DNA of 64,000 nucleotides, taken from Altererythrobacter sp. H2. Lineage in GTDB: Bacteria; Pseudomonadota; Alphaproteobacteria; Sphingomonadales; Sphingomonadaceae. The DNA is taken from contig NZ_CP141285.1 of the NCBI RefSeq assembly GCF_035319885.1, forward strand, positions 682,001-746,000, written 5' to 3'. A model generated the notes under the pieces. That model searched no databases, was not told where the DNA came from, and saw only the letters and a program-made list of their open reading frames with translations. How positions within the stretch are numbered: position 1 is the first letter of the stretch; every line of letters starts with the position of its first letter. Shown piece by piece: positions 5,983 to 14,927 of the stretch. A program made the position numbers and the translations under genes.

Positions 5983-6846
5983 ATGACCACCTGGACCATC
6001 GGCATCATCGGGGGCAGCGGCCTCTACCAGATCGACGCATTGGAAGACGCGCAGTGGATCCGCGTCAACTCCCCGTTCGGCGAAGCGTCGGACGAGATCC
6101 TGTGCGGGCGGATCGGTCCGGTTCGGGTGCGCTTCCTCCCCCGCCACGGGCGCGGCCACCGCGTTGCCCCGTCGGAACTCAACGTCCGCGCCAATATTGA
6201 CGCGCTCAAGCGCGCCGGGTGCACCGACATTCTCGCCATCGGCGCGGTCGGCTCCCTGCGCGAGGAACTGCCGCCGGGCCGCTTCGTGGCGGTCGACCAG
6301 TTCATCGACCGCACCAAAGGTCGCCCATCCAGTTTCTTCGGCACCGGCATGGTCGCCCATGTCAGCATGGCCGAGCCGGTCTGCCCGCGCCTCAGCGCGA
6401 TGGCGGCGGACGCGGTCGAGGCGGCGGGCGGCACGGTCGTGCGCGGTGGCACCTATCTCGCGATGGAAGGGCCGCAGTTTTCCACCCGCGCAGAAAGCCA
6501 CCTCTACCGCCAGTGGGGTGCGGACGTGATCGGGATGACCGCCATGCCGGAAGCGAAACTGTGCCGCGAGGCGGAGATGCCTTACGCCCTGCTCGGCATG
6601 GTGACCGATTACGACTGCTGGCGCGAGGATGCCGCCTTTGTCGAAGTCAGCCAGGTGCTGGAACAGATGCACGCCAATGGCGCGATTGCGCGGCAGGCGG
6701 TGGAGCGGTTCATCGCCGCCCTGCCCGAAGTGCGTGAACCCACACCGCTTGACACCGTGCTCGACCACGCCCTGATCACCGCGCCCGATGCGCGCGATCC
6801 GGCCGTGCTGGCGAAGCTGGATGCGGTGGCGGGACGGGTGCTCTAG
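5983..6846 (+). CDS. mtnP: S-methyl-5'-thioadenosine phosphorylase
   Basis: A 287-residue purine nucleoside phosphorylase of the MTAP type. It cleaves methylthioadenosine with phosphate into adenine and methylthioribose-1-phosphate in methionine salvage. Motifs are the phosphate-binding GGSGLY (10-15), RHGRGH (54-59), TYLAMEGPQFSTRAES and GMTAMPEAKLCREAE, typical of the family along its full length. It begins 45 bp after the dehydrogenase gene and may be read through from it. Its stop overlaps the stop of the convergent radical SAM gene by 4 bp. No other mtn genes are seen nearby. Other 5'-deoxyadenosine derivatives could be substrates given the neighbour. Confidence 0.93.
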   Translation: MTTWTIGIIGGSGLYQIDALEDAQWIRVNSPFGEASDEILCGRIGPVRVRFLPRHGRGHRVAPSELNVRANIDALKRAGCTDILAIGAVGSLREELPPGRFVAVDQFIDRTKGRPSSFFGTGMVAHVSMAEPVCPRLSAMAADAVEAAGGTVVRGGTYLAMEGPQFSTRAESHLYRQWGADVIGMTAMPEAKLCREAEMPYALLGMVTDYDCWREDAAFVEVSQVLEQMHANGAIARQAVERFIAALPEVREPTPLDTVLDHALITAPDARDPAVLAKLDAVAGRVL

Positions 6847-7832
6847 GCGGAACAGCTCGCCCCGCCGAGCACGCAGAAGCGGGCGCAGTGGGGGTGGTTG
6901 AGGGCGATTTCGCCCGAGGCTTCGGCCAGCGTCGCGCCCATGTCGAACTGCGGGTCGTAAGGGATCAGCGTGCAGGCGGCGACGCGCGGGGCGGGCTCGC
7001 CCTTGCGGTGGACGACCATCCGGCTGGTCGCGCACATGATTTGCGCCGGTGACTTGCCGAGGATGCCCCAGCAATCGACCGTGATTTCGGCAATGTCGCG
7101 GGTCGCGTCCATTTCCGGGAACAGCACCAGCCGGGCCGGATCGTGCGCGTCGATCCCCACGCCCTCGGCGGCGAACAGCCGGGCGTAGCCATCGCGCGCT
7201 TCGCCCATGCTTTCGCCCGGCAGCAGGCGGCCTGCGACCGCGATGGAGAAATGGTTGTCTGACAGCCATTTCAGGCCGTCCAGCCCCGGCGCCCAGCTGT
7301 TCGGACCGCGCTCGCCTTCGTGGCCTGCTTGCGTGTGGTGGTCGAGGCTCACGCGGATCGTCAGCCTGTCCCCGAACCGCGCGCGCAGGGCGAGCAATGC
7401 CGCCTCGTGGCGTCGCATCGGCTTCATCGCATTGCTCAGCACCAGAGCGTCGAACCCGCGTTCGAGCGCATCGGTGAGCATGGCGAGGAACTGCGGGTTC
7501 ATGAACGGCTCGCCGCCGGTAAAGCCGATCTCGCGGGTGCCCATCCCCTGCGCCTCGTCGAGGAAACGCGCCGCGTCGCTGGCGGCAAGATAGACCAGCG
7601 CATCGTTGGTCGGGCTGCTTTCGATGTAGCAGGTGGCGCAGGCGAGGTTGCACAGCGTCCCGGTGTTGAGCCACAGCGTTTCGAGCCGGGTTAGTGGCAC
7701 TGATGCCCGGCGCTCGCCCTTGGCGGTCCATTCGGGATCGGCGAACTTCTCCCGCGGCAGCAGTGCCCCGTCGACCCGGAACGGCGAGGGGCCTGTGGGC
7801 GCGTTGCGCGAGCGGGTGCGGGCCTCGCTCAT
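6843..7832 (-). CDS. Radical SAM protein with extra C-terminal cysteines
   Basis: A 329-residue radical SAM enzyme. The cluster-binding CxxxCxxC is CNLACATC at residues 61-68, followed by the GFTGGEPFMNP motif (glycine-rich, SAM contact). Three cysteines at the extreme C-terminus (316, 320, 327) could bind a second cluster. The C-terminus is unlike MoaA SPASM domains, and the substrate is unknown. The ATG at 7832 overlaps the upstream gene's TGA as ATGA, so the protein is co-translated with the MerA-like flavoprotein. With the TIGR04282/04283-type glycosyltransferases further upstream, a role in making an unusual sugar or adenosyl-derived metabolite is possible but inferred. It is not ArsS by motif and not HpnH by context. 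Confidence 0.85.
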   Translation of the reverse strand: MSEARTRSRNAPTGPSPFRVDGALLPREKFADPEWTAKGERRASVPLTRLETLWLNTGTLCNLACATCYIESSPTNDALVYLAASDAARFLDEAQGMGTREIGFTGGEPFMNPQFLAMLTDALERGFDALVLSNAMKPMRRHEAALLALRARFGDRLTIRVSLDHHTQAGHEGERGPNSWAPGLDGLKWLSDNHFSIAVAGRLLPGESMGEARDGYARLFAAEGVGIDAHDPARLVLFPEMDATRDIAEITVDCWGILGKSPAQIMCATSRMVVHRKGEPAPRVAACTLIPYDPQFDMGATLAEASGEIALNHPHCARFCVLGGASCSA

Positions 7833-9259
7833 GCAAACGTCCGGCGCAGCTTCGCCACCAGCGCCGCGTATTTCTTCGGCACCTTGCCGAACACGGTCGG
7901 TTCCCACGCGCTGAAGGCGGCGGCCTTGGCGATCTCGCTGCGGGTGGGGTAGCTGATTACTGCGCTGCCCATGGCAAAGGTGCTGCTCTTGCCGGTGATG
8001 CTCTGGCTGAACGGCAGCAGCAACTCGCCCGCGTTCTTCCCGACAATGCTGGCGCCGAGCACTTTCTTGCCCTTGAGCACCAGCTTGAGGTGGCCCCGGG
8101 TGTCGCCCTCGGCAATGGCGCGTTCGTTGTCGTCGAAGCCTTCCTTGACCACGATGACTGCATCGCCGTGCTGCGCGCGCGCTTCGGCCTCGGTCAGCCC
8201 CACCTGCGCCACTTCGGGCTCGGTATAGGTGCACCAGGGCAGGGCGCGGTAATCGACCTTGGTCGGGATTCCGGTGACGATCTCCAGCGCCACGTTGGAG
8301 CCCTCGTAGCCCGAGGCATGGGTCAGGCGCGGTCCGTCGCGGCAATCGCCGATGGCGTAGATCGACCTGACCGAGGTGCGGCGCCGGGCATCGGTGACAA
8401 TCCCGTTCGGGCCAATTTCCACGCCCACTTCCTCCAGCCCGAAGCCGCGGCAATTGGCCTTGCGACCGACCGCGACCAGCAGGTGTGAGCCATCGACCGC
8501 CTCGCTGCCGCCATCCGACAGGCTGATTTCCACGCGCAGCGCACCTGCGCGGCCCTCGGCCCTGCACACCGTGCCGTCGATGAAGCGGACGCCCTCCTCC
8601 TCCATCACGGCGCGCACCACGGCGACGGATTCCGGATCGTCCCGCCCCATCAGCGGGCCGGGGTTGACCACGGTGACCGCGCTGCCGAGGCGGCGGAAGG
8701 CTTGTGCCATCTCCATCCCGATCACCCCGCCACCGATGATGACGAGGTGCTCTGGCTGCTCGGCCAGATCGAACAGGTTTTCGTTGGTGAGGTAGGGTAC
8801 GCTGTCCAGGCCTTCGATCGGCGGCACCATCGGCTTCGAGCCGGTGGCGATCACGATCCGAGGGGCGGTGAGCGTGCGGCCATCGACCTCGACCGAATGC
8901 GCGCCGGTGACCCGGGCCCAGCCCGGGATGACTTCGACGCCCATGCCTTCGAACGTCTCGACCGAATCATGGGGCTCGATCTCGGCAATCGCCTGGCGGA
9001 CGTGCGCCATGACCCCGGCCCAGTCGACCTGCGGCGGGGCGAGCGTCACGCCGTGGCGGGTCGCTACCCGCGCCTCGGCCGCGCGCTTGGCGGCAGTGAT
9101 CAGCGCCTTCGACGGTACGCAGCCGTTGTTGAGGCATTCGCCGCCCATCTTGTGGCCTTCGACCAGCACGGCCTTCAGCCCGAACAGGGCCACGCCGCCT
9201 GCTGCGGTGAGGCCTGCGGCGCCCGCGCCGATCACGATTGCATCATGGGTAAATTTCAT
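7829..9259 (-). CDS. MerA/lipoamide-dehydrogenase-like FAD oxidoreductase
   Basis: A 476-residue class I pyridine nucleotide-disulfide oxidoreductase. It has the FAD motif GAGAAGL (11-17), redox-active ECLNNGC with cysteines 42 and 47, an NAD(P)H motif GGGVIGMEMA and the second FAD motif AIGDC. Near residue 447 the dimer-interface motif reads YPTRSE, so the catalytic His of lipoamide and glutathione reductases is replaced by Tyr, as in MerA-like proteins. It lacks the N-terminal HMA domain and the C-terminal Cys pair of true mercuric reductase. I chose ATG 9259 because the protein then begins just before the Rossmann strand. It is co-translated with the radical SAM gene (ATGA overlap) and may be its electron donor. 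Confidence 0.87.
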   Translation of the reverse strand: MKFTHDAIVIGAGAAGLTAAGGVALFGLKAVLVEGHKMGGECLNNGCVPSKALITAAKRAAEARVATRHGVTLAPPQVDWAGVMAHVRQAIAEIEPHDSVETFEGMGVEVIPGWARVTGAHSVEVDGRTLTAPRIVIATGSKPMVPPIEGLDSVPYLTNENLFDLAEQPEHLVIIGGGVIGMEMAQAFRRLGSAVTVVNPGPLMGRDDPESVAVVRAVMEEEGVRFIDGTVCRAEGRAGALRVEISLSDGGSEAVDGSHLLVAVGRKANCRGFGLEEVGVEIGPNGIVTDARRRTSVRSIYAIGDCRDGPRLTHASGYEGSNVALEIVTGIPTKVDYRALPWCTYTEPEVAQVGLTEAEARAQHGDAVIVVKEGFDDNERAIAEGDTRGHLKLVLKGKKVLGASIVGKNAGELLLPFSQSITGKSSTFAMGSAVISYPTRSEIAKAAAFSAWEPTVFGKVPKKYAALVAKLRRTFA

Positions 9260-9376
9260 TGTGCGCCCCGCGTAACCCGTTATGCCTCGCCCGCGAAGCA
9301 TGTTCTGCATTCCCGTTCGCGCAATTGAGGCACCACGTTACATGAACTCGGTTCCGGCCAGCCCGGCGGCCTGCTG

Positions 9377-10456
9377 TTGAGGGTATTCGTTACCGGGGCC
9401 GCCGGCTTGCTCGGCGGGGAGGTCTGCGCCCGGCTCGCAGCAGCCGGGCACAGCGTGACCGCGCTGGTCCATCGCAACCCGCAGGTGTGCGACAACCGGG
9501 GCCGCCCGGTCGCCGTGGCCGGGGCGGTGCAGGGGGATGTCTCGCTGCCGCAATTCGGCTGGGATCAAGACGCATGGGACGCGGCGGCCGCTGGCCATGA
9601 CCTGCTGGTCCATTGCGCCGCGACCGTCCGGTTCGACCTCGACGAGGCGGACTATGCCGCCGTCAACGTGGGCGGCACGGCCGAGGCGCTCAGGCTGGCC
9701 GGTGCAGGCGGGATGGCCTTTCTCCATGTCAGCACTGCCTATGTCTGCGGAGTGCGCGACGGCCTTATCAAGGAGAGTGACCCGCTGCCCGAAACCGGTT
9801 TCGCCAACGGCTATGAAGCAAGCAAGGCGGCCGGCGAGCGGCTGGTGCGCGCCAGCGGTCTTACCTGGGCCATCGCGCGCCCCTCGATCGTGGTCGGGGA
9901 GCATGGCGATGGCACCATCCGCCAGTTCGACACCACATATGCCGCGTTCAAGCTGATTGCCGAAGGCCGCGTGCGCCATATGCCAGCCCGCGCCGGGGCG
10001 ACGCTCGACTTCGTGCCGGTCGATCATGTCGCGGCAGGCATCGCCCTGCTTGGCGAAAGGATGGAGCAGGCGGCGGGGGGTACCTTCCACCTTGTTTCCG
10101 GCCAGCCCTTGCCGGTCGGGCGGTTCACCGCCGCGATCGGGGCCTACCCGCACTTTCACGAGCCGGAACTGGTTGCGCCAGAGGCGTTCGATCCCTCCAT
10201 GCTGCCTGCCCTGGAGCGCCGCCTGTTCCGCCGGGTGGCCGGGCTCTATGCCAGCTATTTCCAGCGCAACCCCCACTTCGACGATTCGGCCTTCCGCGCG
10301 ATTGCCGGGGCCGGCTGCCCGGAAACGGGCGAGGCCTACATTCGCCGCCTGATCGACCACTGTATCGCGGTCGGGTTTCTGGCCGCTAGCGCACGTGCGG
10401 ATAGTGCCGTGCCAGCCTGGCGCGCGCGCCCACAGCCCAGAGAATGCCGACCTTGA
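9377..10456 (+). CDS. Extended SDR / NAD-dependent epimerase-dehydratase
   Basis: A 359-residue extended short-chain dehydrogenase. The nucleotide-binding motif TGAAGLLGG is at residues 6-14, a catalytic Ser lies in HVSTAY (117-122), and YEASK supplies Tyr146 and Lys150. The central part resembles the male-sterility/thioester-reductase type NAD-binding domain, so sugar nucleotides or thioester-bound lipids are both possible substrates. No in-frame ATG is available, and a TTG at 9377 places the Rossmann fold at residue 1. The coding end runs 71 bp into the 3' end of the convergent glycosyltransferase gene. It diverges from the flavoprotein gene. Confidence 0.82.
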   Translation: MRVFVTGAAGLLGGEVCARLAAAGHSVTALVHRNPQVCDNRGRPVAVAGAVQGDVSLPQFGWDQDAWDAAAAGHDLLVHCAATVRFDLDEADYAAVNVGGTAEALRLAGAGGMAFLHVSTAYVCGVRDGLIKESDPLPETGFANGYEASKAAGERLVRASGLTWAIARPSIVVGEHGDGTIRQFDTTYAAFKLIAEGRVRHMPARAGATLDFVPVDHVAAGIALLGERMEQAAGGTFHLVSGQPLPVGRFTAAIGAYPHFHEPELVAPEAFDPSMLPALERRLFRRVAGLYASYFQRNPHFDDSAFRAIAGAGCPETGEAYIRRLIDHCIAVGFLAASARADSAVPAWRARPQPRECRP

Positions 10457-11114
10457 AATAGATCCAGTTGGCCTTGAGCGGCCCCCAGGCGGCGATCCGC
10501 CGGTCCGAGGTGACGATCCAGCGCGGGACCATGCGGATCTTGCCGAGTGCTGCGAATTTCACGCACAGGTCGGCCTCCTCCATCACCGCGTCCCCCGGGG
10601 TGCAGCCGCCGATGGTGAGGAACTGCGCGCGGCGGAAGAACATCCCGTGGTCGCCGAACAGCAGCCGCACCCCGCGCAGGAACAGATGCGGGCGGGTAAT
10701 CAGCGGCGCGTACCAGGTCTTCAGCCAGTTGTGGACAGTGGTGCCCCAGCGGGTCTTGTCACCCCGGATCAGCGGGGTGAAGCTGGCGAGCGCGATTCTT
10801 GGTTCGGCCAGCGTTTCGCGGATGACCTGCACCATATCGCGCGGGGGTACGCTGTCGGCATGGAGCACGCAGACCAGCGGCGCGGTGGCGGCGGCGACAC
10901 CGGCATTTATCTGCCAGCCGCGACCCGCCTCGGTCTCTACCAGGGTCCAGCCAGCGGCGCGGGCGATCTCCGGGCTCCGGTCTGAGCTGCCGCCATCGAC
11001 CACCACGATCTCGGCCGGTTGCGGGTCAAGCTGGCGCAGCACCTCGACCAGCGCGGGCAGGGCCTTTTCCTCGTCCAGCACCGGGATGACGAGTGCGACG
11101 GGCGAAGGGTTCAT
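10386..11114 (-). CDS. Family 2 glycosyltransferase, TIGR04283 type
   Basis: A 242-residue GT-A fold glycosyltransferase. The N-terminus ALVIPVLDEEKALP and VVDGGSSDRS are nucleotide-sugar contacts, and LHADS is the DxD-like metal site. The compact length and the ending match the TIGR04283 family, which databases label an arsenosugar biosynthesis glycosyltransferase, a name based mainly on gene neighbourhood. The ATG at 11114 overlaps the TGA of the upstream TIGR04282-type gene (ATGA), so the two are co-translated. Its 3' end overlaps the convergent SDR gene by 71 bp. Donor and acceptor are unknown. Confidence 0.87.
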   Translation of the reverse strand: MNPSPVALVIPVLDEEKALPALVEVLRQLDPQPAEIVVVDGGSSDRSPEIARAAGWTLVETEAGRGWQINAGVAAATAPLVCVLHADSVPPRDMVQVIRETLAEPRIALASFTPLIRGDKTRWGTTVHNWLKTWYAPLITRPHLFLRGVRLLFGDHGMFFRRAQFLTIGGCTPGDAVMEEADLCVKFAALGKIRMVPRWIVTSDRRIAAWGPLKANWIYFKVGILWAVGARARLARHYPHVR

Positions 11115-11689
11115 GGCAGGAACTCCGGCCAGCGGGCGAGGTCTTCGGGCGTATCGACGTCGCTGAGTTCCGGCAGCACTGCCGGACGAATGCCGCGCTG
11201 CGCGAACCGGCGCAGGGTTTCCTCGAACACCGCAGGCGTGCTCCATGGCATGTCTGAAAAGGCAAAGGCCGCGTCCGCGTTGTAGCCGAGCAGGTAGTAC
11301 CCACCATCGCTGGCCGGGCCGATCACCATGGGGTCGGTTGTGAGAGCGTCTGCCGCGGCTTGCAGGACGGCAGGCGTCAGGCCGGGGCAGTCGCTGCCGA
11401 TCACGATTGCCGGTGCGGGTACGGCCGATAGACGGGCAGTGAGATCGCCCTCGCCCTGCGATGTCACGGTGAGGTCAGGCCCGAAGGCTGCGCGGAACAG
11501 CTCCGGCGCGCCGCCGGTCACGCGCAATTCGAACGGCACGTCGCTGGCGCGTGCCACCGCAATCGTGTGCGCCAGCAGGCGGGTGTAGATCGTTGCCGCG
11601 CCCTCTGCGCCGAAGTGCGGGATCAGCCGGGTCTTGACCTCGCCGGGGCGCGGCCAGCGGGCGAAGATCGAAAGCAGGGGCGGGGCCAT
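11111..11689 (-). CDS. DUF2064/TIGR04282-type glycosyltransferase
   Basis: A 192-residue protein of the DUF2064 nucleotidyl/glycosyl-transferase-like family. FARWPRPGEVKTRL near the N-terminus, IGSDCPGLT in the middle and GPASDGGYYLLG are its conserved blocks; the last resembles the CofC/MobA-type nucleotide-binding fold. The family is annotated as an arsenosugar biosynthesis glycosyltransferase (TIGR04282) and nearly always accompanies a TIGR04283 gene, as here with a 4-bp ATGA overlap. No arsenic-resistance gene (arsM, arsB, arsR) is visible, so the arsenic role is unproven. It diverges from the hydroxylase gene at 11743. Confidence 0.87.
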   Translation of the reverse strand: MAPPLLSIFARWPRPGEVKTRLIPHFGAEGAATIYTRLLAHTIAVARASDVPFELRVTGGAPELFRAAFGPDLTVTSQGEGDLTARLSAVPAPAIVIGSDCPGLTPAVLQAAADALTTDPMVIGPASDGGYYLLGYNADAAFAFSDMPWSTPAVFEETLRRFAQRGIRPAVLPELSDVDTPEDLARWPEFLP

Positions 11690-11742
11690 GGTGACCCACT
11701 AGCCGCTCGACGCAGCCAGCGCCATGGGGCAGGGTTGCCGCA

Positions 11743-12549
11743 ATGAACCGCGCCCGCCTCCTTGTTGCTCTGGCCGCAGCCACCGGTGTCGCCGCCCTGC
11801 TGGTGGCCGAGCGCAAGCGGCCCTTGCGGCAGCAGACCTTGCCCGATGTGCCGCGCAACCTGCGCAATGCTGCGCTCGGGGCCGGGTGTGCGGTCATCGT
11901 CGCCGCGGTAGAGGAGCCGCTGACCCGGGCGATTGCGCGCGGCAACCTGGCCAAGGAGCGCGGCCTTGCCCAGCGCTTGCCACGCCCTCTGCGCCTGCTC
12001 GGCGGGATCGCGGCGATGGATTACGGGTTCTACTGGTGGCACGTGGCGACGCACCGGGTGCCGTTCCTGTGGCGTTTCCACCGCGTCCACCACGTCGATC
12101 CCGACATGGACGCCAGCACGGCGGTGCGGTTTCACCCGCTCGATATGCTGGTCTCGCTGCCGTGGCGGCTGGTGCAGGTGCGGCTGGCGGGCGTCAGCCC
12201 CAAGACCCTGCGCTGGTGGCGGCGGTTCTTCAACGCCTCGATCCTGTTCCACCATGCGAACCTGCGCTTGCCGGAGGGGTGGGACCAGCGGCTGCGCACG
12301 GTGCTGACCACGCCGGAGATGCACGGCCTGCACCATTCGCGGGTGCCCGAGCAGCAGGATAGCAACTTCACCAGCGGGCTCAGCCTGTGGGACCGGCTGC
12401 ACGGGACCTTCCGCGCAGACCCCCCTCCCGGCACCTTCATCATCGGGGTGGATGATCCGCAGGCGCTGGCCGACGTGGCCATCGATCACGCGCTGGCAGC
12501 GCCGTTCGCCCGACGAACGGCTGACTTCAATCGACCAGCGTTGGATTGA
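11743..12549 (+). CDS. Sterol desaturase / fatty acid hydroxylase family membrane protein
   Basis: A 268-residue integral membrane di-iron enzyme of the fatty acid hydroxylase superfamily. Histidine clusters typical of the family are present: HVATH, HRVHH, HHANL and HGLHH. An N-terminal hydrophobic segment (residues 5-22) and another around 45-60 anchor the protein. Such enzymes hydroxylate carotenoids, hopanoids, ornithine lipids or fatty acyl chains using O2. The substrate here is not evident, and no carotenoid genes lie in the window. The start codon lies 54 bp from the divergent glycosyltransferase start, so the two may share a control region. Confidence 0.88.
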   Translation: MNRARLLVALAAATGVAALLVAERKRPLRQQTLPDVPRNLRNAALGAGCAVIVAAVEEPLTRAIARGNLAKERGLAQRLPRPLRLLGGIAAMDYGFYWWHVATHRVPFLWRFHRVHHVDPDMDASTAVRFHPLDMLVSLPWRLVQVRLAGVSPKTLRWWRRFFNASILFHHANLRLPEGWDQRLRTVLTTPEMHGLHHSRVPEQQDSNFTSGLSLWDRLHGTFRADPPPGTFIIGVDDPQALADVAIDHALAAPFARRTADFNRPALD

Positions 12550-12608
12550 CTTGGGCGGCCCGAGCAGGCCCATAGGGGGCAAGAGTTTTGCACCAAGGGG
12601 CCTTTCGC

Positions 12609-14927
12609 ATGTTCGCTCGTCACAGCCGCCAGTTTACCCGTCTTTCGCTCGCCGCAAGCCTGCTCGCCTCGGCCAGTGCCGTGGCTGCGCAGGAAGCTCC
12701 GATCATCCAGCCCGGCGCGCCGGGGGAAGCACCCAGGGTGATCGGTGCCGATGAAGCGACCCGTCTCGCTGCACTGACCTGGACCCCGGCCGACATCGCC
12801 TTCATGCAGGGCATGATCGTCCACCACCAGCAGGCGGTGGAAATGGCGGCGCTGGTCAAGGGGCGGACCAGTCGCGAGGAAATCGTGGCCGTGGCCGGGC
12901 GGATTGACGCCAGCCAGGCAGACGAGATCGCCTTCATGCGCGGCTGGCTGGAAGAGCGCAGCGAACCGGTCGCGATGGCCGGCATGGGCCATGCCCACCA
13001 CACGATGAAGGGCATGGCCAGCCCCGAAGACATGGCGCGGCTGGCCACGCTCGATGGCGTCGCGTTCGAGCGCTTGTTCCTCCAGCTGATGATTGCCCAC
13101 CACCGGGGCGCGCTGGACATGGTGGAAGACCTGCTGCGCGTGCCCGGCACCGCCTTCGACCCGGGTCAGCAGCGCTTCGTCAACGATGTCGAGACCGATC
13201 AGAAGGCCGAGATCGAGCGGATGAACGCGCTCTACGCCACGCTCTCGGAAGATCCGCGCGCCACGCTGGCGGCAGGCTTTGCCGATGCGGGGGAAGCCAT
13301 TCTCAACTTGCGCAAGGTGGTGAGCCTGGCCAAGCCGGCCGGCTTCGTCGATCCGGCCAACCCGGCGGGCCTCCAGCCGGTCATGCCCAAGAAGGAAGAC
13401 AAGAAGGACGGGACGGCTGAAGCGCCCAAGGCGGAGACTGCCGCCGACCCGCACGCCGGGCACCGGATAGCGGCTGCACCTGCCGCCACCGCCGCCCCAC
13501 CCGCCGCCCCGCCCGCCGCCGGAACCCCGCCACCTGCAGGCGAAGAGGCGGATGCCAAGCCGCAATTCGGCAAGCGCGGATCGCCGTTCGACTTTGCCAA
13601 TACCGACATGGCCTTTTCCGGCGATCTGATGGTGGCCGGCAACTACCACGGCTGGAACGCCTATCGCCTCGGCGAAGACGGTGTGCCCACGCTGGTCAGT
13701 TCGGTCGTCTGCCCGGGTGGGCAGGGGGACGTCTCGGTGGTCGGCAACCTGCTGATCATGTCGGTCGAACAGACCACCGGGCGGGTCGATTGCGGGCTGC
13801 AGGGCGTGCCCGAGCGGATCAGCGCCGAGCGGTTCCGCGGCCTGCGGATCTTCGACATTTCCGACGTGACCCGCCCGCGCCAGGTCGGCCAGGTGCAGAC
13901 CTGCCGTGGCAGCCACACCCATTCGATCGTCAGCGCCGATGCGGAACGGCTGGTGGTCTACAACTCCGGCACCTCGGGCGTGCGCGACGAGAAGGAGCTG
14001 GCCGGCTGCATCGGGGATGACACCGGCGATACCCGCACCGCGCTGTTCAGCATCGACGTGATCGAGATCCCGGTGGCCGACCCGTCGAAGGCGCGGATCG
14101 TTGACAGCCCGCGCGTGTTTGCGGCGGAAGGCCAGATTGCCGGGCTGTGGCGCGGCGGTGACCATGGCGACGGGACGCAGGACACCTACCGGACCGACCA
14201 GTGCCATGACATCACCGTGTTTCCGGCCAGGAAGCTCGCTGCCGGGGCCTGCTCGGGCAACGGCATCGTGTTCGACATTTCCGATCCGATGAAGCCGAAG
14301 CGGATCGACGCGGTGACCGACAAGGGCTTTGCCTACTGGCACTCGGCCACCTTCAACAACGACGGGTCGACCGTGATCTTCACCGACGAATGGGGCGGCG
14401 GGGGCCGGCCGCGCTGCCAGGCGGGCGATCCGAAGAACTGGGGCGCCAACGCCTTCTACGGCGTCGAGAATGGCAAGCTGGTCTATCGCGGCACCTACAA
14501 GCTGCCCGCCCCGCAGGGGGACAAGGAGAACTGCGTCGCCCACAACGGCTCGATCATCCCGGTTCCGGGGCGCGACCTGTTCGTCCAGGCCTGGTACCAG
14601 GGCGGCATTTCGGTGATCGACTTCACCGATGCGGCCAACCCGCAGGAGATCGCCTATTTTGACCGCGGCCCGGTCGACAAGGACCAGCTGGTGGTGGGCG
14701 GATACTGGTCGGCCTACTGGTATCGCGGCCGCATCTACGCGACCGAGATCACCCGCGGGCTGGACGTGTTCGCGCTGGAGCCGAGCCAGTTCCTCACTGC
14801 CGAAGAGATCGCCGCCGCCGAAGCTGCGATCTACCCCGGCGACGTGTTCAACCCGCAGACGCAGACCCAGGTGACCTGGCCGGCGGACGTGGCGGCCGCA
14901 GCCGAGGCAAGCCGCAAGGGCGGTTAA
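12609..14927 (+). CDS. Secreted DUF305 - LVIVD-repeat fusion protein
   Basis: A 772-residue exported protein joining two families. Residues 1-28 are a Sec signal peptide. DUF305 follows (about 55-210) with paired histidines in IVHHQQAVEMA (HH72-73) and IAHHRGALDM (HH164-165), thought to bind metal. A Pro/Ala/Lys-rich linker (about 255-310) leads to a beta-propeller of LVIVD-type repeats, seen in phrases such as RGLRIFDISDVTRPRQVG and GIVFDISDPMKPKRI. ATG 12609 has AAGGGG at 12595-12600; a TTG 21 bp upstream is a worse start. A periplasmic or surface metal-binding role is inferred. It stands alone after the hydroxylase gene. Confidence 0.87.
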   Translation: MFARHSRQFTRLSLAASLLASASAVAAQEAPIIQPGAPGEAPRVIGADEATRLAALTWTPADIAFMQGMIVHHQQAVEMAALVKGRTSREEIVAVAGRIDASQADEIAFMRGWLEERSEPVAMAGMGHAHHTMKGMASPEDMARLATLDGVAFERLFLQLMIAHHRGALDMVEDLLRVPGTAFDPGQQRFVNDVETDQKAEIERMNALYATLSEDPRATLAAGFADAGEAILNLRKVVSLAKPAGFVDPANPAGLQPVMPKKEDKKDGTAEAPKAETAADPHAGHRIAAAPAATAAPPAAPPAAGTPPPAGEEADAKPQFGKRGSPFDFANTDMAFSGDLMVAGNYHGWNAYRLGEDGVPTLVSSVVCPGGQGDVSVVGNLLIMSVEQTTGRVDCGLQGVPERISAERFRGLRIFDISDVTRPRQVGQVQTCRGSHTHSIVSADAERLVVYNSGTSGVRDEKELAGCIGDDTGDTRTALFSIDVIEIPVADPSKARIVDSPRVFAAEGQIAGLWRGGDHGDGTQDTYRTDQCHDITVFPARKLAAGACSGNGIVFDISDPMKPKRIDAVTDKGFAYWHSATFNNDGSTVIFTDEWGGGGRPRCQAGDPKNWGANAFYGVENGKLVYRGTYKLPAPQGDKENCVAHNGSIIPVPGRDLFVQAWYQGGISVIDFTDAANPQEIAYFDRGPVDKDQLVVGGYWSAYWYRGRIYATEITRGLDVFALEPSQFLTAEEIAAAEAAIYPGDVFNPQTQTQVTWPADVAAAAEASRKGG

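Follow-up and report, generated by a model that had tools for sequence, protein, structure and literature searches.

What is made by a gene cluster that joins a radical S-adenosylmethionine (SAM) enzyme to two proteins of families named after arsenosugars? The question is raised by positions 5983 to 12549 of a 64,000-nucleotide window (682001-746000) in the genome of Altererythrobacter sp. H2, a single contig of 3.24 Mb, whose closest named relative is the metagenome-assembled genome (MAG) Erythrobacter sp. 34-65-8 (L031; radical SAM protein 96% identical). All six genes that the original prediction had described, including a flavoprotein, a short-chain dehydrogenase/reductase (SDR), and proteins of the TIGR04282 and TIGR04283 families, were found where it had placed them, and both of the ATGA overlaps it had reported (radical SAM/flavoprotein and TIGR04283-like/TIGR04282) are real. 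We conclude that this is a real pathway cluster and that its link to arsenic has good but indirect evidence. It is probably an arsenosugar-type biosynthesis cluster in which the arsenic-adenosylating enzyme ArsS has been replaced by another radical SAM family and from which the methyltransferase gene arsM has been deleted.

Every gene family was searched for in one set of 199 genomes from the window's family, the Sphingomonadaceae. The radical SAM gene was present in 55 of them (threshold E 1e-20), in one case (G037) as a fragment at a contig end. TIGR04282 scored over its cut-off in 56 genomes, namely all 55 that carry the radical SAM gene and G026, and a TIGR04283-like protein of at least 147 bits was found in exactly the same 55, the next best match reaching 92 bits. 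Weak TIGR04283 matches occur in 198 of the 199 genomes because the glycosyltransferase family 2 (GT2) is broad, and the full cut-off of 182 was reached in five. A cluster-type arsM was found in 35 genomes, all among the 55, and in none of the other 144. Fisher tests, in which kinship is ignored, gave p values of 1e-48, 2e-50 and 4e-25 for the association of TIGR04282, the TIGR04283-like protein and arsM, respectively, with the radical SAM gene. Genera g15, g41, g68, g72, g78 and g89 each include some genomes that have the gene set and some that lack it. Since TIGR04282 lies more than 8 kb from the radical SAM gene or on another contig in 11 of the 55 genomes, among them the 420-contig draft G022, linkage alone does not explain the co-occurrence. 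G026, which holds TIGR04282, a partial TIGR04283 gene and hydroxylase fragments without a radical SAM gene, looks like a case of decay of the gene set. The original prediction had suggested a dedicated pathway and had named a lack of co-occurrence elsewhere as the result that would speak against it; the co-occurrence found across these genomes strongly supports the suggestion.

The tie to arsenic, which had been drawn from family names, is firmer than first thought, since arsM once stood inside the cluster and its presence is nested in that of the radical SAM gene. In relatives, a gene (c6) encoding about 351 residues sits between the flavoprotein and SDR genes, and it lies within 8 kb of the radical SAM gene in 32 of the 35 genomes that carry it and apart from it in three. 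Its best NCBIfam match is NF008823 (154.6 bits against a cut-off of 263), followed by the arsinothricin and arsenosugar ArsM models. Its solved relatives at E 1e-10 are five sequences, ArsM only, the best being 5evj (1.2e-116). Cysteines C25, C53, C148 and C198 (spacings 28, 95 and 50) are invariant in 11 sequences, a pattern close to that of algal ArsM, whose cysteines we take to be 44, 72, 174 and 224. Judged by its sequence, c6 is an ArsM.

In the window's species, arsM has been deleted in-frame. A MAG of the same genus (L062) carries an intact gene for a 350-residue ArsM between the flavoprotein and SDR genes, and relative to it the window is short of about 1,014 bases net, with ATGAAC and the last codons kept. 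The remnant at 9342-9380 reads MNSVPASPAACC and a stop, where the intact protein ends in GSVPSTPAACC; its first two and last residues match the L062 ArsM. Identical remnant letters are found in the only further assembly from this species (L031, whose contig is also that of L184). In arsM-bearing relatives, arsM and the SDR gene overlap or adjoin by our own gene calls. The earlier statement that arsM is absent thus holds for the window and for the whole genome, in which neither type of arsM searched for was found, and needs amending only in that the scar of the gene is present.

Such losses appear repeatedly. The 36th match of the arsM search, in G099, was a different ArsM type over its own cut-off, and this second type was sought in the 20 radical SAM genomes that lack the cluster arsM, not in the 144 without the enzyme. 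Inspection of the gap between the flavoprotein and SDR genes covered 13 of the 20; the seven outside it are G000 (the window's genome), G072, G153 and G005 (without a flavoprotein in the stretches fetched), G022, G099 and G161. The gap measures 44 to 185 bases in 11 (G002, G010, G054, G064, G080, G096, G100, G108, G131, G148 and G186), and the other two are G116, from the window's species, and G078, where the gene calls overlap. Ten of these 11 keep the radical SAM, flavoprotein, SDR and both glycosyltransferase-type genes in their usual order, with the glycosyltransferase pair 14 kb off in G186; G010 is rearranged. The scars vary, G096 retaining the first eight residues (MNIENSRD) and G186 and G054 the start region only, and both arsM states are held within genera g1, g3, g7, g24, g54 and g59. 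We read this as several separate losses. Across eight genome pairs (at least one member arsM-less, synonymous divergence dS >0.4), the ratio of nonsynonymous to synonymous substitution rates (dN/dS) was 0.05-0.24 for the radical SAM, flavoprotein, SDR and both glycosyltransferase-type genes, and part of the divergence behind these values may predate the losses.

By analogy with ArsS, a carbon-arsenic bond would most likely be formed here by a separate radical SAM family that scores far below the ArsS cut-off. The window enzyme belongs to the radical SAM superfamily by its PF04055 domain and CxxxCxxC motif, and its fold agrees. The motif (61/65/68) and C254, C267, C287, C316 and C320 are invariant in 34 radical SAM sequences. 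None of its 25 best NCBIfam matches listed reaches an equivalog cut-off. Membership of ArsS (TIGR04167) was rejected at 51.7 bits against a cut-off of 300, and so was a common clade, as the 34 sequences and 16 ArsS sequences were split by a branch with support of 100/98, on long branches; the outgroups of this tree were three rows with branches of 6 to 10 changes per column, so that their placement is not trustworthy. The C-terminal cysteine cluster reads HC-x3-C-V-L-G-G-A-S-C and departs from the ArsS pattern HC-x2-C-T-A-G-x-G-S-S-C, to which it is similar in kind. The two profiles align over 221 columns with a probability of 98.9% and 21% identity. The predicted structure (mean predicted local distance difference test score 84.5) resembles enzymes with SPASM/twitch-type C-termini, with matches to BlsE, SkfB, SuiB, MoaA, viperin and others, a common fold that does not indicate the substrate. 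The absence of ArsS from the structure matches listed excludes nothing. When the profile was searched against the PDB for a relative informative about the reaction, only remote enzymes were found (best E 3e-7), and the one annotated plasmid copy of high identity is labelled simply 'radical SAM protein'. In literature on arsenosugars, TIGR04282/TIGR04283 or Rv1681 we found no paper on this enzyme, although the broadest results were too large to exclude one.

Adenosylation of arsenic is the role given to ArsS in arsenosugar synthesis (PMC12159101), and in Synechocystis it is described as a partner of ArsM (PMC8552651). In a sample of 398 genomes from the phylum, weighted towards family f38, ArsS was found in 116 (114 over the cut-off), from which 20 loci were hand-picked for spread. 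Flavoprotein-type proteins were present in 10 of these loci, TIGR04282 in seven (an eighth at 43 bits), TIGR04283 in six (a seventh at 44 bits), 5'-methylthioadenosine phosphorylase (MTAP) in three and ArsM of this clade in two (two more ArsM at 127 and 132 bits). In one of them, L140, a single stretch carries ArsS together with ArsM, MTAP, TIGR04282, TIGR04283 and a flavoprotein to which a VTT domain is fused; the others share fewer partners or none. As ArsS clusters hold the same partners, the window enzyme most likely fills the slot of ArsS.

To describe the neighbourhoods of the enzyme, 38 loci were gene-called and clustered, 36 from a scan of GTDB contigs and two annotated plasmid loci; a Marinobacter plasmid match at 35% identity (L068) was excluded from the counts. 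Genes were called with a home-made codon-score caller, which misplaced some starts and missed some genes, and locus and genome counts are not independent because of shared contigs (L031 in G116, L062 in G033). Besides the radical SAM gene, present by construction, TIGR04282 was found in 25 loci, TIGR04283 homologues in 25, MTAP in 20 and the SDR in 15; arsM was found in 14, and 14 had a flavoprotein-type protein, which in L048 and L051 is a distant copy that does not adjoin the radical SAM gene. We take TIGR04282, TIGR04283 and the radical SAM gene to be the core, because they are consecutive in the same direction with nothing between them in six loci (L039, L041, L042, L045, L047 and L066), and the flavoprotein, arsM and SDR genes to be an added block. 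In the 13 genomes or records behind named loci, TIGR04282 was present in 12 (10 over the cut-off) and this ArsM in three, the exception for TIGR04282 being L061. In genus g2 (L146-L148) and a Blastomonas MAG (L064 with L208-L209), the pathway genes stand at three sites, which hold the radical SAM gene alone, the glycosyltransferase pair, and the flavoprotein-arsM-SDR block.

Other genes recur beside the cluster. A DUF547 protein and a GT2-containing protein of about 660 residues adjoin it in nine sphingomonad loci (L038, L043, L046, L048-L051, L065 and L066), followed in four of these by a phosphate-permease-type gene. A run on a Roseomonas plasmid (L067, 7043-14003) comprises TIGR04282, DUF547, a second (TrsS-like) radical SAM protein, the present enzyme, a PhnD/PhnE/ABC transporter and a metallophosphoesterase; the pathway may thus include uptake of an oxyanion or of a compound resembling a phosphonate.

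The pairing was also found in a second family, the Rhodobacteraceae, of which 169 genomes, taken around the Pseudooceanicola genome of L058, were scanned with the radical SAM profile and for TIGR04282. The former was present in 82 and the latter in 86 at E 1e-10 (66 over the cut-off); both occurred in 78 genomes, the radical SAM gene only in four, TIGR04282 only in eight and neither in 79, with kinship not corrected for. The two genes are unlinked in the loci examined. In L053-L058 and L060 the radical SAM gene is divergent from the glucose 6-phosphate genes zwf-pgl-pgi, an odd partner, with pgi unseen on the short contig L057. The neighbours of TIGR04282 are presumably dapE- and RNase R-like, as judged by eye from their first residues.

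How these parts would work together can be proposed as follows. The flavoprotein would keep a methylated arsenical trivalent, and the radical SAM enzyme, by its position, partners and distant homology, would join the 5'-deoxyadenosyl group of SAM to trivalent arsenic as ArsS does. MTAP could then take adenine off the resulting 5'-deoxy-5'-arsenoadenosine to give 5-arseno-5-deoxyribose 1-phosphate. The idea that a neighbouring phosphorylase cleaves a deoxyadenosyl product is plausible, as MTAP occurs in all 55 genomes that have the radical SAM gene and in 88 of the 144 that lack it, and lies no more than 3 kb from that gene in 23 of the 55; the window's copy is the sole TIGR01694 match in its genome and must therefore serve ordinary salvage too. 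For TIGR04282 we propose sugar activation, not transfer, because the protein is CofC-like (42.5 of 105 bits to CofC TIGR03552, residues 17-186) and its sole solved relative is 3cgx, a putative nucleotide-diphospho-sugar transferase; it would activate the sugar phosphate with a nucleotide, and the TIGR04283-like protein would move the sugar to an acceptor. The SDR may act on the acceptor or the product, which is a guess. In relatives ArsM would supply the methylated arsenic, and in the window's species, where arsM is gone, methylated arsenic would have to come from outside if the pathway still uses it.

Several observations weigh against the arsenosugar reading, and some of them favour a different one, in which the core makes an arsenic-free metabolite derived from a 5'-deoxyadenosyl group or a sugar, arsM having been added in part of the Sphingomonadaceae for some different reason and lost where it was unneeded. 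No arsM of either type was found in 19 of the 55 radical SAM genomes (three of them drafts less than 90% complete), so arsenic methylation is unnecessary for retention of the core, and the low dN/dS in the tested pairs agrees with this. In the Rhodobacteraceae, 78 of the 82 genomes with the radical SAM gene also have TIGR04282, this arsM was present in one of eight genomes, the enzyme stands beside zwf and pgl in seven of eight loci and pgi in six, TIGR04282 has other genes as neighbours, and none of the eight stretches around the enzyme yielded a TIGR04283 call. Within the window's family, Blastomonas (G593) and genus g2 hold the parts at three separate places, and in the stretches fetched from G072, G153 and G005 there is no flavoprotein gene, and in the latter two no SDR gene either. 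The gammaproteobacterial L061 (7354-10933, from a MAG of 1.9 Mb) has VTT, the flavoprotein and the radical SAM gene with neither TIGR04282 nor this arsM. The enzyme is far from ArsS in score and clade and may therefore catalyse a different reaction, the breadth of the flavoprotein family perhaps makes its presence beside ArsS less telling, and the word arsenosugar in the TIGR04282 and TIGR04283 names presumably rests on association. Nevertheless, an arsenic-free product does not readily account for an arsM that, within the window's family, is confined to genomes with the radical SAM gene (35 of 55, and 0 of the 144 others) and mostly near the enzyme, nor for the same partners in ArsS clusters, and we consider it rather unlikely.

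It is less likely still that the cluster in the window's species is a decaying remnant, with arsM lost first and the rest to follow. The deletion scar would fit this, and G026 could represent a later stage. Against it, all other frames are intact, and the radical SAM genes of G000 and G116, which share the scar, have a dN/dS of 0.10 at a dS of 0.14, the other genes being too similar to judge. The arsM-less pairs G002/G096, G054/G186 and G080/G148, at dS 0.7 to 1.6, have dN/dS of 0.05-0.17, although some of this divergence is perhaps older than the losses. An ArsL-like action on inorganic arsenite (adding a 3-amino-3-carboxypropyl or adenosyl group), with ArsM methylating afterwards as in the ArsL-then-ArsM order described in PMC8552651, would explain the repeated loss of arsM alone with the rest kept, since only the end product would change, but it is quite improbable because the nucleoside phosphorylase and sugar-handling partners suit an adenosyl product better than an amino-acid one and because ArsL differs from the window enzyme in length and motif position.

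The genes are probably transcribed from two divergent extracytoplasmic function (ECF) promoters of the heavy-metal sigma-F type, one per operon, as suggested by sequence motifs in the gap at 9260-9376 (117 bases). This gap wholly holds the only two matches to TTCG-N17-GTTWC in the 64 kb, which on the opposite strand is GTAAC-N17-CGAA. For Caulobacter, the sequence bound by sigma-F is reported as GTAACC-N16-CGAA (PMC3511200). In the window's gap and 19 orthologous gaps there were 29 motif matches against 0.045 expected, which is not a clean test because the motif had been picked out by eye in the very regions that were then counted and one genome was counted twice (L052 and L180). For the window alone, 17 of 100 shuffles gave at least two matches, place disregarded. 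In some genomes, a switch of the -35 sequence between GTAAC and GAAAC seems to affect both sides at once.

Features of the cluster in the window (positions count from the first base of the window)
Feature	Position	Strand	Evidence or remark
MTAP/mtnP, 5'-methylthioadenosine phosphorylase	5983..6846	+	TIGR01694, 282 bits, over the cut-off of 274.85
Radical SAM enzyme, 329 residues, proposed ArsS equivalent	6843..7832	-	Pfam PF04055
FAD-dependent disulfide oxidoreductase, CLNNGC redox pair	7829..9259	-	PF07992/PF02852; ATGA-coupled to radical SAM gene
ECF-type promoter sequence GTAACC-N16-CGAA	9272..9297	+	exact sigma-F match; towards arsM remnant and SDR
ECF-type promoter sequence GTAACG-N16-CGAA	9316..9341	-	one letter off; towards flavoprotein and radical SAM genes
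arsM in-frame remnant, 12 codons and stop, MNSVPASPAACC	9342..9380	+	alignment to intact L062 ArsM
SDR, NAD_binding_4 / thioester-reductase kind	9377..10456	+	PF07993; TTG start overlaps arsM stop
TIGR04283-like GT2 glycosyltransferase	10386..11114	-	162.9 bits, just under the TIGR04283 cut-off of 182
TIGR04282, CofC-like, nucleotidyltransferase-type	11111..11689	-	180.1 bits, over the cut-off of 134
Fatty-acid hydroxylase-family protein	11743..12549	+	PF04116; pathway membership uncertain

The MTAP and radical SAM genes converge with a four-base overlap. The flavoprotein had been called MerA-like, which is right at the level of the superfamily; membership of the MerA family was rejected, as the TIGR02053 score of 327 bits is too low for the cut-off of 454. 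The fatty-acid hydroxylase gene adjoins the cluster in only part of the loci and is the sole pointer to the novel adenosyl-derived lipid that had been envisaged. Beside the cluster, at 12588-14927, is a gene for a protein with a DUF305/CopM-like part and a weak choice-of-anchor-B match, which is possibly metal-related.

More widely, we tentatively suggest that another family of radical SAM enzymes forming arsenic-carbon bonds, as yet unrecognised, might extend across the Sphingomonadaceae and Rhodobacteraceae, that many lineages might have lost arsM by separate precise deletions, and that labour could be divided within communities, others methylating arsenic and these bacteria scavenging dimethylarsenic for conversion to sugars. 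No NCBIfam equivalog covers these proteins, and surveys for arsenosugar makers that are based on ArsS therefore miss them: ArsS was over its cut-off in none of the 199 genomes, against 55 that carry the present enzyme with the same partners. If the enzyme does form a carbon-arsenic bond, the possible bacterial arsenosugar producers would grow by two alphaproteobacterial families and the source of environmental arsenosugars would become testable in cultured strains. Repeated loss of arsM alone would clearly exemplify a pathway divided between species.

Among known systems, the sigma-F regulon of Caulobacter has a promoter sequence that recurs in the window's gap, exactly at one site and with one letter changed at the other. 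The Rv1681 family (NF049973) is the best NCBIfam match of the radical SAM enzyme, yet membership was rejected at 85.7 bits against a cut-off of 380, and the match covers residues 52-206. A mycobacterial relative, on a Mycolicibacterium plasmid (L069, 7803-10762), stands beside genes for an acyl-CoA dehydrogenase and a PhnD-like protein, all three consecutive, in an order that recalls the Rv1679-Rv1681 region by family name; unlike the window, it has no adjoining TIGR04282 or TIGR04283. The arsinothricin cluster arsQML likewise pairs a radical SAM enzyme (ArsL) with ArsM for an organoarsenical. However, it consists of three genes including a permease, without a glycosyltransferase or phosphorylase, and ArsL as described in PMC8552651 has 428 residues with its motif at 194-201, against 329 residues and 61-68 in the window enzyme. 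From ArsS clusters such as that of Synechocystis ArsM and ArsS, the window differs in its separate radical SAM clade, its deleted arsM, its added SDR and a flavoprotein without the VTT domain that is fused in L126 and L140; of the arsenosugar-type gene content, it holds TIGR04282 over the cut-off, TIGR04283 below it and no ArsM. With part of these loci it nevertheless shares TIGR04282, TIGR04283, an FAD oxidoreductase, MTAP and, in its relatives, ArsM, and with ArsS itself the CxxxCxxC motif and C-terminal cysteines of comparable spacing (HC-x3-C-x6-C in the window, HC-x2-C-x7-C in ArsS).

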